From positions 1-43,541 of the forward strand of contig JAFXHL010000092.1 of assembly GCA_017536405.1 (NCBI GenBank): DNA of 43,541 nt. The letters run 5' to 3'. The translations under genes and the position numbers were made by a program. The notes under the pieces are model-generated. The model was not told the origin of the DNA. It was given only the letters and a program-made list of their open reading frames with translations, and searched no databases. Positions 2,385 to 28,439 of the stretch are shown one piece after another (position 1 is the first letter of the stretch; each line of letters begins with the position of its first letter). This stretch comes from Oscillospiraceae bacterium. GTDB taxonomy: Bacteria; Bacillota; Clostridia; Oscillospirales; Ruminococcaceae.

Positions 2385-2413
2385 TTGACATTATTGTCGT
2401 AATGGTGTATAAT
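2385..2413 (+). promoter_or_regulatory. Perfect consensus promoter upstream of the TM1266-hydG-hydF leader
   Basis: TTGACA at 2385-2390, 17-base spacer, TATAAT at 2408-2413. It starts at the last base of the rpsR terminator. Such a strong promoter feeding a terminator 140 bases later implies regulation by attenuation. Confidence 0.92.
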
Positions 2414-2419
2414 ATATTT

Positions 2420-2581
2420 AACGGATATAGAGGATTTTATCTTTCATATCGGTTGACGTTTTTTAAAAACAGACCATCGGGTTGTTTGGGATTTTCCGGA
2501 TAATCGGCAGGCTTTCATAAGAAAACAGCGCATCTGTGCGTTTTTTTGCCACGCCTTTTCTTCGGAAAAAGGCGTTTTTTA
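2420..2581 (+). promoter_or_regulatory. Candidate transcription-attenuating leader of the hydG operon
   Basis: The leader runs from the predicted start (~2420) to an intrinsic terminator at 2551-2580: ACGCCTTTT against AAAAAGGCGT with a C(UUCG)G loop and a T tract. GAAAACAGCG (2521-2530) can pair instead with CGCCTTTTC (2552-2560), leaving one small internal loop; this would break the terminator and acts as a candidate antiterminator. A weaker hairpin CGCA-TCTG-TGCG (2529-2540) followed by seven T residues competes with that pairing. Upstream lie GATAT/ATATC (2424-2428, 2446-2450) and ATCGG/CCGGAT pairings. I do not recognise a known riboswitch class. The ligand or protein signal is unknown. 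Confidence 0.6.
2551..2581 (+). terminator. Leader terminator (attenuator) before the TM1266-family gene
   Basis: Nine-pair stem ACGCCTTTT/AAAAAGGCGT closed by a UUCG-type loop, then six T residues (2575-2580). It lies between promoter and first gene, so it can only act as an attenuator. Confidence 0.88.
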
Positions 2582-2862: not shown

Positions 2863-4278
2863 ATGTATAATCCGAAATCACTCAAAGCAGAAGAATTTAT
2901 CTCACACGAAGAAATTTTATCGACACTTGAATATGCCGATAAAAACAAGGATAACCTCGAACTTATTGACGAAATAATCGCAAAGGCAAAGGAAAGAAAA
3001 GGTCTTTCACACAGAGAAGCTTCTGTTCTTCTCGCTTGCGACAATGAAGAAAAAATCAAGGAAATCTATGCGCTCGCTGAACAGATAAAGAAGGATTTTT
3101 ACGGCAACAGAATAGTTATGTTTGCTCCTCTTTATCTTTCAAACTACTGTGTAAACGGATGTGTTTACTGTCCTTATCATCTTAAAAACAAGCATATCGC
3201 AAGAAAGAAACTTACTCAGGAAGAAATCGAGAAGGAAGTTATCGCTTTACAGGATATGGGACACAAGAGACTTGCCATAGAAGCAGGTGAAGACCCTGTA
3301 AACAATCCTATTGAATACATCCTTGAAAGCATCAAGACTATCTATGCGATAAAGCACAAGAATGGCGCTATAAGAAGAGTAAATGTGAATATTGCTGCAA
3401 CAACTGTTGAAAATTACAGAAAGCTCAAAGATGCGGGAATAGGCACATATATTCTCTTCCAGGAAACATATCACAAGGAAAGCTATGAACAGCTTCATCC
3501 GACAGGACCAAAGCACGATTATGCTTATCATACAGAAGCTATGGACAGAGCAATGGAAGGCGGAATTGACGATGTAGGCCTCGGCGTTCTTTTTGGCCTT
3601 GAACTCTATCGTTATGAATTTGCAGGACTTCTTATGCACGCTGAACACCTTGAAGCTGTTCACGGAGTAGGTCCTCATACAATAAGCGTTCCTCGTCTTA
3701 AAAAGGCGGACGATATCGACCCCGACCAGTTTGACAACGGAATTTCAGATGAAATATTTGAAAAAATCTGTGCTCTCATAAGAATTTCTGTTCCTTACAC
3801 AGGAATGATTATCTCAACAAGAGAAAGCCAGGCTGTTCGTGAAAAGGTTATTAAACTCGGCGTTTCACAGATAAGCGGTGCTTCAAGAACATCTGTCGGC
3901 GGATACACAGAAGAAGAAAGACCTCACGATTCAGAACAGTTTGATGTTTCAGACCAGAGAACTCTTGACGAAGTTGTTCGCTGGCTTATGGAAATGGGAT
4001 ATATTCCTTCATTCTGCACAGCTTGTTACAGAGAAGGAAGAACAGGCGACAGATTTATGAGCCTTTGCAAAGCAGGTCAGATTCAGAACTGTTGTCATCC
4101 CAACGCGCTTATGACGCTCAAGGAATTCCTTATGGACTATGCTTCTCCCGAAACAAGAGAAATAGGCGAAAAGATTATAGAAGAAGAACTTTCGAACATC
4201 CCTAAGGATAAGGTAAGAGAAATCTGTAAGGAAAACCTTGTTAATATCGCAAACGGAAAGAGAGATTTCAGATTTTAA
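2863..4278 (+). CDS. hydG: [FeFe]-hydrogenase maturase HydG, tyrosine lyase
   Basis: HydG is a radical-SAM enzyme that cleaves tyrosine to p-cresol and dehydroglycine and yields the CO and CN ligands of the hydrogenase H-cluster. The protein is 471 residues, the normal length. The SAM cluster motif CX3CX2C is at C96, C100 and C103 (CVNGCVYC). The C-terminal second cluster motif CX2CX22C is at C385, C388 and C411, which distinguishes HydG from the biosynthetic ThiH. The ATG follows AAAGGAGAATGAAAA. The operon carries TM1266, hydG and hydF; hydE and the hydrogenase itself are not in the window. Expression probably depends on the upstream attenuator. Confidence 0.97.
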   Translation: MYNPKSLKAEEFISHEEILSTLEYADKNKDNLELIDEIIAKAKERKGLSHREASVLLACDNEEKIKEIYALAEQIKKDFYGNRIVMFAPLYLSNYCVNGCVYCPYHLKNKHIARKKLTQEEIEKEVIALQDMGHKRLAIEAGEDPVNNPIEYILESIKTIYAIKHKNGAIRRVNVNIAATTVENYRKLKDAGIGTYILFQETYHKESYEQLHPTGPKHDYAYHTEAMDRAMEGGIDDVGLGVLFGLELYRYEFAGLLMHAEHLEAVHGVGPHTISVPRLKKADDIDPDQFDNGISDEIFEKICALIRISVPYTGMIISTRESQAVREKVIKLGVSQISGASRTSVGGYTEEERPHDSEQFDVSDQRTLDEVVRWLMEMGYIPSFCTACYREGRTGDRFMSLCKAGQIQNCCHPNALMTLKEFLMDYASPETREIGEKIIEEELSNIPKDKVREICKENLVNIANGKRDFRF

Positions 4279-4293
4279 CCGAGAGGTGAAATT

Positions 4294-5472
4294 ATGATAA
4301 ATGAACTCAATCAGACGCCTAAGGCACTTAGAAAACATATAGGCATTTTCGGCTCGGCGAATGCAGGGAAATCGACACTCGCAAATCTTATTTCGGGGCA
4401 GGAGGTTTCTCTTGTATCAAGTGTTGCGGGAACGACGACAGACCCTGTTTTCAAGCCGATGGAACTTTTACCTATAGGGCCTGTTGTCATAATAGACACA
4501 GCAGGGCTTGACGATAACACAGAACTCGGAAATTTAAGAACAGATAAGACTTTAAAACAACTTGACAGTTGCGATATGGCACTTTATGTTTTTACTCCTG
4601 ATGAGGACGAAGAAAAGGTAAAGAAAAATCTTTCTATCTTCAAAGAGAGAAAAATTCCTGTTATCGTTATAGAAAATTTAAAAGGAAAATCATCTCCATC
4701 GGGTAAAAATTTCGGGTTTAAAACGATTTCAGCGGATTTATCGGTGGAAAACTCTGTTGATATTGTTAAAAACTCGATTATAACTGCACTTTCGGGTGAG
4801 GATGAAGAAAAATCCATTACTGCTGATTTAGTAAAGGCGGGAGATACTGTTCTTCTTGTTATGCCACAGGATTCGGCAGCTCCTAAGGGCAGGCTCATTA
4901 TGCCTCAGGTTCAGGTTACGAGAGATTTGCTCGATAACGGATGTATTATAATAAGCGTTACCACAGATAAGCTTTCTGACGCATTATCAGAACTTAAAAA
5001 TCCGCCCGACCTTGTTATAACCGACTCGCAGGTTTTCGGGAAGGTAAACAGTATTCTTTCAAAAGAAATAAGACTGACATCTTTCTCTATGCTTATGGCA
5101 AAAAACAAGGGCGATATAGATGAGTTTGTGAAGGGTGCTTCCGCTATAAGAAACCTCTCTGACGGCGACAAGGTTCTTATAATAGAAAACTGCGCGCACC
5201 ATGTTATGAAGGATGATATCGCGAGAATAAAAATCCCCATGATGCTTAAAAAGTTTACGGGCAAGGAACTTGAAATTGTAAATATCTCGGGACAGAATGC
5301 ATACCCCGACCTTTCGGATGTGAGTCTTGTAATCCATTGTGGCGGATGTATGATAAACAGAAAGACAATGCTTTCAAAGCAGAAATATTTCAAGGAAAAT
5401 AATATCCCGATGACTAATTTCGGAGTGGCTCTTGCTATGATGAACGGAATACTTGAAAGGGTAGTTTATTAG
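4294..5472 (+). CDS. hydF: [FeFe]-hydrogenase maturation GTPase HydF
   Basis: HydF is the GTPase scaffold on which the 2Fe subcluster is assembled before transfer to HydA. At 392 residues it has the family length. The N-terminal G domain has the P-loop GSANAGKST (about residues 20-28), a switch-like AGTTTDP and the G3 motif DTAGLDD. The C-terminal cluster-binding ligands are visible as C300-x-H302 and, about 45 residues later, H348-C349-x-x-C352 (HCGGC). It starts 15 bases after hydG with GAGAGGTG as ribosome binding site. The operon ends in a clear terminator. Confidence 0.97.
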   Translation: MINELNQTPKALRKHIGIFGSANAGKSTLANLISGQEVSLVSSVAGTTTDPVFKPMELLPIGPVVIIDTAGLDDNTELGNLRTDKTLKQLDSCDMALYVFTPDEDEEKVKKNLSIFKERKIPVIVIENLKGKSSPSGKNFGFKTISADLSVENSVDIVKNSIITALSGEDEEKSITADLVKAGDTVLLVMPQDSAAPKGRLIMPQVQVTRDLLDNGCIIISVTTDKLSDALSELKNPPDLVITDSQVFGKVNSILSKEIRLTSFSMLMAKNKGDIDEFVKGASAIRNLSDGDKVLIIENCAHHVMKDDIARIKIPMMLKKFTGKELEIVNISGQNAYPDLSDVSLVIHCGGCMINRKTMLSKQKYFKENNIPMTNFGVALAMMNGILERVVY

Positions 5473-28348: not shown

Positions 28349-28439
28349 GGAGACGTATCGAAGTGGTCATAACGAGAACGACTCGAAATCGTTTGGGCGG
28401 TAACACGTCCCGTGGGTTCGAATCCCACCGTCTCCGCCA
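28349..28439 (+). tRNA. tRNA-Ser (anticodon CGA)
   Basis: The 7-bp acceptor stem is GGAGACG (28349-28355) with CGTCTCC (28429-28435), then discriminator G and an encoded CCA. The anticodon arm AACGA-CTCGAAA-TCGTT gives anticodon CGA, reading UCG (Ser). A long variable arm and the T arm with GTTCGAATC follow, as expected for a class II tRNA. No room for a promoter exists between the upstream hairpin and the 5' end, so it is probably processed from the upstream transcript. Confidence 0.95.

Follow-up and report, generated by a model that had tools for sequence, protein, structure and literature searches.

Among described RNA leaders, the small riboswitches (preQ1-I, fluoride, HMP-PP) resemble the element discussed here in having a small, conserved core close to the transcript's 5' end, a narrow gene association, and a 3' strand that is shared with an antiterminator or a ribosome-binding site; their sequence and structure, however, are unrelated to it, and Rfam gives no match. 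The NiCo/czcD riboswitch is likewise clostridial, linked to metals and dependent on terminator control, but is built around a four-way junction and precedes efflux genes, while the candidate Moco riboswitch has a different structure, larger than the core described below. The latter nevertheless offers a parallel in gene content, since it accompanies genes for the construction of an elaborate metal cofactor and is likewise found in Clostridia (PMC2408646). In PyrR-binding and other protein-responsive leaders, finally, a hairpin competes with a terminator, as is the case here.

An RNA element that seems not to have been described before, and that has the look of a genetic on/off switch, is found by sequence comparison in gut and soil Clostridia, almost exclusively in the leaders of H-cluster maturation genes. 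Its core is a hairpin of ~38 nt, 5'-CUGA-[P, 3-5 bp]-RAAG-loop-CUGA-[P']-GAAAG-3', often present in tandem, in which a short helix P lies between two identical purine-rich internal loops (CUGA facing RAAG/GAAAG). Rfam 15 holds no family at or above its gathering threshold in the leader under study, and a permissive search of the window and 29 other loci gave nothing near threshold at the element, the Moco and NiCo/czcD families included; the earlier note, which had matched the leader to no known class, is borne out both there and in the relatives. Hits to PyrR, Leu leader, GcvB and others (11-21 bits) were far below their thresholds and were discarded, and the PyrR score (20.7 bits at 2500-2582, against a threshold of 54, and before different genes) probably reflects the presence of a hairpin and a terminator only. 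The motifs of a 2017 survey of 224 candidate RNAs should reportedly be in Rfam, and a literature search (hydrogenase, TM1266, riboswitch, attenuation) yielded no description of the element or of RNA control of [FeFe]-hydrogenase maturation. The element is a new class of riboswitch-like leader, and the leader studied here is probably a divergent member of it, the class being widespread, probably acting in cis on [FeFe]-hydrogenase H-cluster assembly, and presumably being OFF when folded.

The leader upstream of TM1266, hydG and hydF

In the window, that is, the whole stretch of 43,541 nucleotides that was analysed, a sigma-70-type promoter on the forward strand (TTGACA-17-TATAAT, 2385-2413) matches the consensus at 12 of 12 positions and is predicted to start transcription near 2420. 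The resulting leader (2420-2581) has a predicted fold of -47 kcal/mol (z = -3.3), equalled by none of 200 shuffled sequences, and ends in an intrinsic terminator (2551-2581, forward strand) composed of a stem at 2551-2575 and a T tract. Three genes follow on the same strand: a TM1266 family gene encoding a putative ACT/NikR-C-like regulator (2583-2849; TIGR03959, 107 bits; PF21699, NikR_C; PDB 2nzc), hydG, for the radical SAM maturase (2863-4278; TIGR03955, 955 bits), and hydF, for the maturation GTPase (4294-5472; TIGR03918, 495 bits). The arrangement described in the earlier note, a perfect promoter driving a folded leader of ~160 nt that terminates just before TM1266-hydG-hydF, thus holds in each of its parts. 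The start of TM1266 itself is uncertain within 2583-2615 (TTG at 2583 or GTG at 2595); in two relatives (L012, L013) the gene seems to begin at TTGGAAAAT, where the window has ACGGAAAAT. Elsewhere in the window, positions 28349-28436 are a tRNA gene (Rfam RF00005).

TM1266 is present in all five other genomes of the genus and in 74 of 148 genomes of the family. The promoter is kept at the matching place in four relatives (L010, L012-L014), and in many relatives a -10 box lies ~7-10 nt before the beginning of the element, an indirect argument against transcripts that begin only downstream of the leader, which the earlier note had named as a refuting result. Within the genus the leader is kept although its neighbours change, as exemplified by L014, where other DNA, without rpsR, is found upstream, yet promoter, two hairpins and terminator are all retained; in L011 the leader is on the opposite strand, and agrees with the others once turned.

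The conserved part of the leader consists of two hairpins, located upstream of the segment that the earlier note had highlighted. The first (predicted fold, 2420-2454, forward strand), of the form AAC-G-GAUA...UAUC-G-GUU, is the 5' member of the tandem pair, and its outer helix covaries across relatives, GAUA/UAUC being replaced by GGUA/UGCC (L041) or by GGCG/CGCC (L038). The second (2472-2513, forward strand), a variant of the class core, has its P helix at 2480-2485/2500-2505 and inner pairs at 2488-2490/2495-2497; across ten aligned leaders (alignment A7) it is 97.8% paired, with four pairs altered on both sides, as compared to at most 58% paired in slid controls.

Directly 3' of P', where the class has GAAAGGC, the window carries GGCAGGC (2506-2512, forward strand), the 5' strand of a predicted antiterminator. 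When the nascent chain is folded up to the terminator loop, GGC-A-GGC pairs with GCC-AC-GCC at 2548-2555 of the same strand (GCCACGCC), which overlaps the 5' arm of the terminator, and the same pairing is predicted in L010 and L012. A small hairpin on the forward strand, GCGC-AUCU-GUGCG (2529-2541, with wider bounds of 2527-2547), is predicted inside this antiterminator. These folds call for two amendments to what had been proposed. The complementarity between GAAAACAGCG (2521-2530) and 2552-2560 does exist; its role as the antiterminator was nonetheless abandoned, since the nascent fold uses 2506-2512/2548-2555 instead, and the pairing of GAAAACAGCG is less well conserved, L012 having AAAAAATCACCGC. 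Similarly, a second hairpin followed by its own T residues is present (2527-2542), but the idea of a conserved competing terminator at 2529-2547 was rejected, the hairpin being nested in the antiterminator and its T tract being interrupted in L012.

A hairpin class upstream of H-cluster maturation genes

The motif was first noticed by reading the leaders of TM1266-bearing genomes of the family, and the initial seeds were chosen by eye, so that covariation among the seeds carries a selection bias, from which the blind scans and the second set of loci described below are free. A first model (R1, 12 seeds), run over all collected leaders, recovered unseeded members before hydF (L036) and between hydE and hydG (L040:2801-2838, where the 3' strand of the core and the ribosome-binding site of hydG overlap), as well as tandem copies in L067, L035, L083 and L021. 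The second model (R2) was made from 26 sequences (alignment A5), in which 97.0% of positions expected to pair do so and 59 of 203 cells are changed on both sides; its score of 0.778 is to be compared with 0.227 (sd 0.031) for shuffled alignments and at most 0.215 for slid ones.

Model R2 was then scanned blind over whole genomes. In the family, it gave 24 matches at E<=0.0023, all before maturation genes, and reached unseeded hydE (L095), hydF (L098, L107) and hydG (L101) genes, matches at E>0.007 being chance. In wider scans, 59 of 394 genomes of the order and 65 of 391 of the taxonomic class had a match, and downstream DNA was fetched and read for nearly every one. At E<=3e-4 all matches lie before TM1266, hydE, hydG or hydF, or before another gene that one of these follows (aspA-hydF, acetyltransferase-hydG), apart from those at contig ends and L197, and matches judged to be chance start at 3.6e-4. 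The first maturase gene downstream is TM1266 in 66 cases, hydG in 23, hydE in 8 and hydF in 4 (~106 loci, one match being double-counted); hydA was not recognised as a direct target among the matches read. Approximately 190 of the 246 hydG-bearing genomes of the taxonomic class had no copy detectable at the scan threshold. Matches that fall within coding sequence or have no maturation gene downstream were set aside as chance (L108-L114, L188-L190, L194, L207, L208, L217, L221, L222, L227, L230), as was, by its context, a match of 23 bits in the window's own genome (C47).

A second set consisted of 80 hydG loci with organism names, obtained from one protein search; it is independent by retrieval and not wholly by membership, some genomes having been in the scans already (e.g. 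L277 and G111). At E<=0.3, R2 found 67 matches there, none of them on the non-coding strand (p = 1e-20) and nearly all of them immediately upstream of TM1266, hydE or hydG. Two of the matches, L250:2759 and L258:788, are weak and apparently due to chance. Pairing amounts to 95.6%, with a score of 0.619 versus 0.172, in an alignment fitted to the model. Among the carriers with a species name are Desulfosporosinus hippei DSM 8344 (L304), which has a tandem and in addition a copy at hydG, and Lacrimispora amygdalina (L270), with two copies. The covariance search across homologous leaders that the earlier note had proposed therefore found strong covariation, in A5, in the hydG loci and in the hairpin 2 alignment, and not the lack of it that the note had named as refutation.

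A number of loci deserve separate mention. In L197 and L236 a sequence that matches the core well (E=1.5e-4), and whose end resembles a Shine-Dalgarno site, precedes an SsuA/NMT1-like ABC transporter operon, and is a candidate member. Cores before hydG on MAG contigs labelled Spirochaetales and Alphaproteobacteria (L292, L314, L315) have transfer or binning error as candidate readings. In L123 and L124 the first ORF, ~95 nt downstream of the core, is a GNAT-type acetyltransferase-like gene (named by eye), with hydG following it. The RNA of L232 and L215 precedes an aspartate ammonia-lyase-like gene and then hydF, an order in line with the role reported for ammonia-lyases in H-cluster ligand synthesis (PMC11736057). 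Lastly, two RNA-headed operons (L238:309-4138, and L237 on the reverse strand) combine a FecCD-type ABC transporter, nitrogenase-like genes (NifH-like in both, and also NifD- and NifK-like in L237) and hydE, and the ABC ATPase of L238 carries a C-terminal TM1266 domain; these operons may represent a so far overlooked system for metal uptake or for a cofactor, with a link to the biology of the H-cluster.

Relation of the window leader to the class

With filters off, R2 gives no match above background at the window hairpins, and membership of the window leader has consequently to be deduced from position, architecture and intermediates. The window shares with the class its gene context, its promoter, its tandem hairpins, and an antiterminator strand directly 3' of P'. 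Hairpin 1 is taken as the equivalent of the 5' copy in the tandem leaders L067, L035, L021, L316, L251 and L304. In hairpin 2, the two-by-two internal loop is UU/GG in the window, GC/GG in L012, and AA/GA, as in the class, in L014 and L023; L014, which belongs to the window's own genus, has AAGG/CUGA in this hairpin, as in the class. A model of the window type (R3) recovered mainly its own seeds, and its non-seed matches, which are weak (E about 3), coincide exactly with cores of the class (L316, L053, L263). A further R3 match (L326, in G048) has no maturation gene nearby, apparently lies within other coding sequence, and was rejected.

The failure of R2 at the window hairpins and the near-restriction of R3 to its seeds are what could be expected if the window leader were an unrelated attenuator that happens to precede the same genes, the wider class being real and the window outside it. 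We consider this improbable, in view of the AAGG/CUGA of L014, of the R3 matches on class cores, each of them weak, and of the way in which the paired hairpins of the window and the place of its antiterminator match the class. Taken together, the shared operon context, the arrangement of hairpins in tandem, the site of the antiterminator and the intermediates argue with good confidence for the window leader being a derived tandem variant of the class, whose two hairpins would presumably work as the class core does.

Expression platforms and the nature of the signal

Two types of expression platform were found. For the transcriptional one, 18 nt around the core 3' GAAAG were paired with either their own or permuted terminator 5' arms: own duplexes average -12.35 kcal/mol, versus -8.77 (sd 0.32) for permuted ones (n=68), and none of 2000 permutations was as low. 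In the second set the values were -11.25 versus -8.09 kcal/mol (sd 0.38; n=42), with 0 of 5000 as low; relatedness of the sequences somewhat weakens the independence of the permutations, yet the observed mean was never reached. This pairing supports the architecture of a transcriptional riboswitch, as had been proposed for the window, and relatives also display a translational version: in more than 30 hydG copies the core ends in GAAAGAAAGGA or similar, from a few to ~18 nt before the start codon. Of the features that would define a riboswitch, two are seen here, namely a conserved, covarying structure upstream of genes that belong together and an expression platform with mutually exclusive pairing; the third would be a small molecule or ion that binds directly and thereby alters expression.

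The anatomy of these platforms suggests the direction of control. The folded core would hold the 3' strand GAAAG..., which would prevent the antiterminator from forming and let the terminator end transcription; upstream of hydG, the folded core would hide the Shine-Dalgarno region. In the open core, GAAAG... would pair with the terminator 5' arm or be accessible to the ribosome, allowing expression of the maturase genes. Since on either platform folding keeps back the strand that expression requires, the folded state would be OFF. Folding would most likely be stabilised by a small molecule or ion tied to H-cluster assembly, resulting in feedback repression. That the hairpins do no more than fix the extent of read-through or the stability of the mRNA, with no sensor involved, is very unlikely: the window hairpins are predicted to be stable alone, and the ligand is as yet hypothetical, but a fixed level would need neither a core with the same loops on both terminator and Shine-Dalgarno platforms nor a mutually exclusive pairing kept across species.

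The sensor could also be a protein, for which the small size of the core, as aptamers go, leaves room. TM1266 or another protein would bind the symmetric hairpin and repress its own operon, and several observations point this way: TM1266 is the commonest first gene (66 of ~106) and resembles the metal-binding domain of NikR; among the hydG-type genomes tested, it occurs in 42 of 43 that bear the RNA versus 50 of 60 without detected RNA (p = 0.024); and the core is small and near-palindromic, a two-fold symmetric site being suited to a dimer. However, a genome that is 97% complete (G541) has the RNA before hydG and no TM1266, TM1266 is common where no RNA is detected, and the RNA also precedes hydE, hydF or hydG alone, so that a protein-binding attenuator is judged unlikely.

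A tentative reading, which we place somewhat short of even chances, is that of a new class of riboswitch sensing directly an intermediate or by-product of H-cluster assembly and feedback-repressing the maturases, the window bearing two tandem aptamer-like hairpins. The ligand could, for example, be the iron-cyanide-carbonyl synthon of HydG or free iron in that pathway, both of which are possible. The gene association of the class is narrow, covering maturases, TM1266 and, in two genomes, the FecCD/nitrogenase-like/hydE operons; as no iron transporters other than the FecCD type were seen among the matches read, a general iron sensor seems less likely, on gene content, than a signal specific to the pathway.

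The class offers a testable sensor of H-cluster assembly and a means of influencing hydrogen production in Clostridia, both those of the gut and those used in industry. Possible partners of the pathway also emerge from its associations: an aspartate ammonia-lyase, a transporter of the FecCD type that carries a TM1266 domain, and genes resembling those of nitrogenase. As an orphan element it may point to a metabolite or metal species that has so far gone unmonitored.
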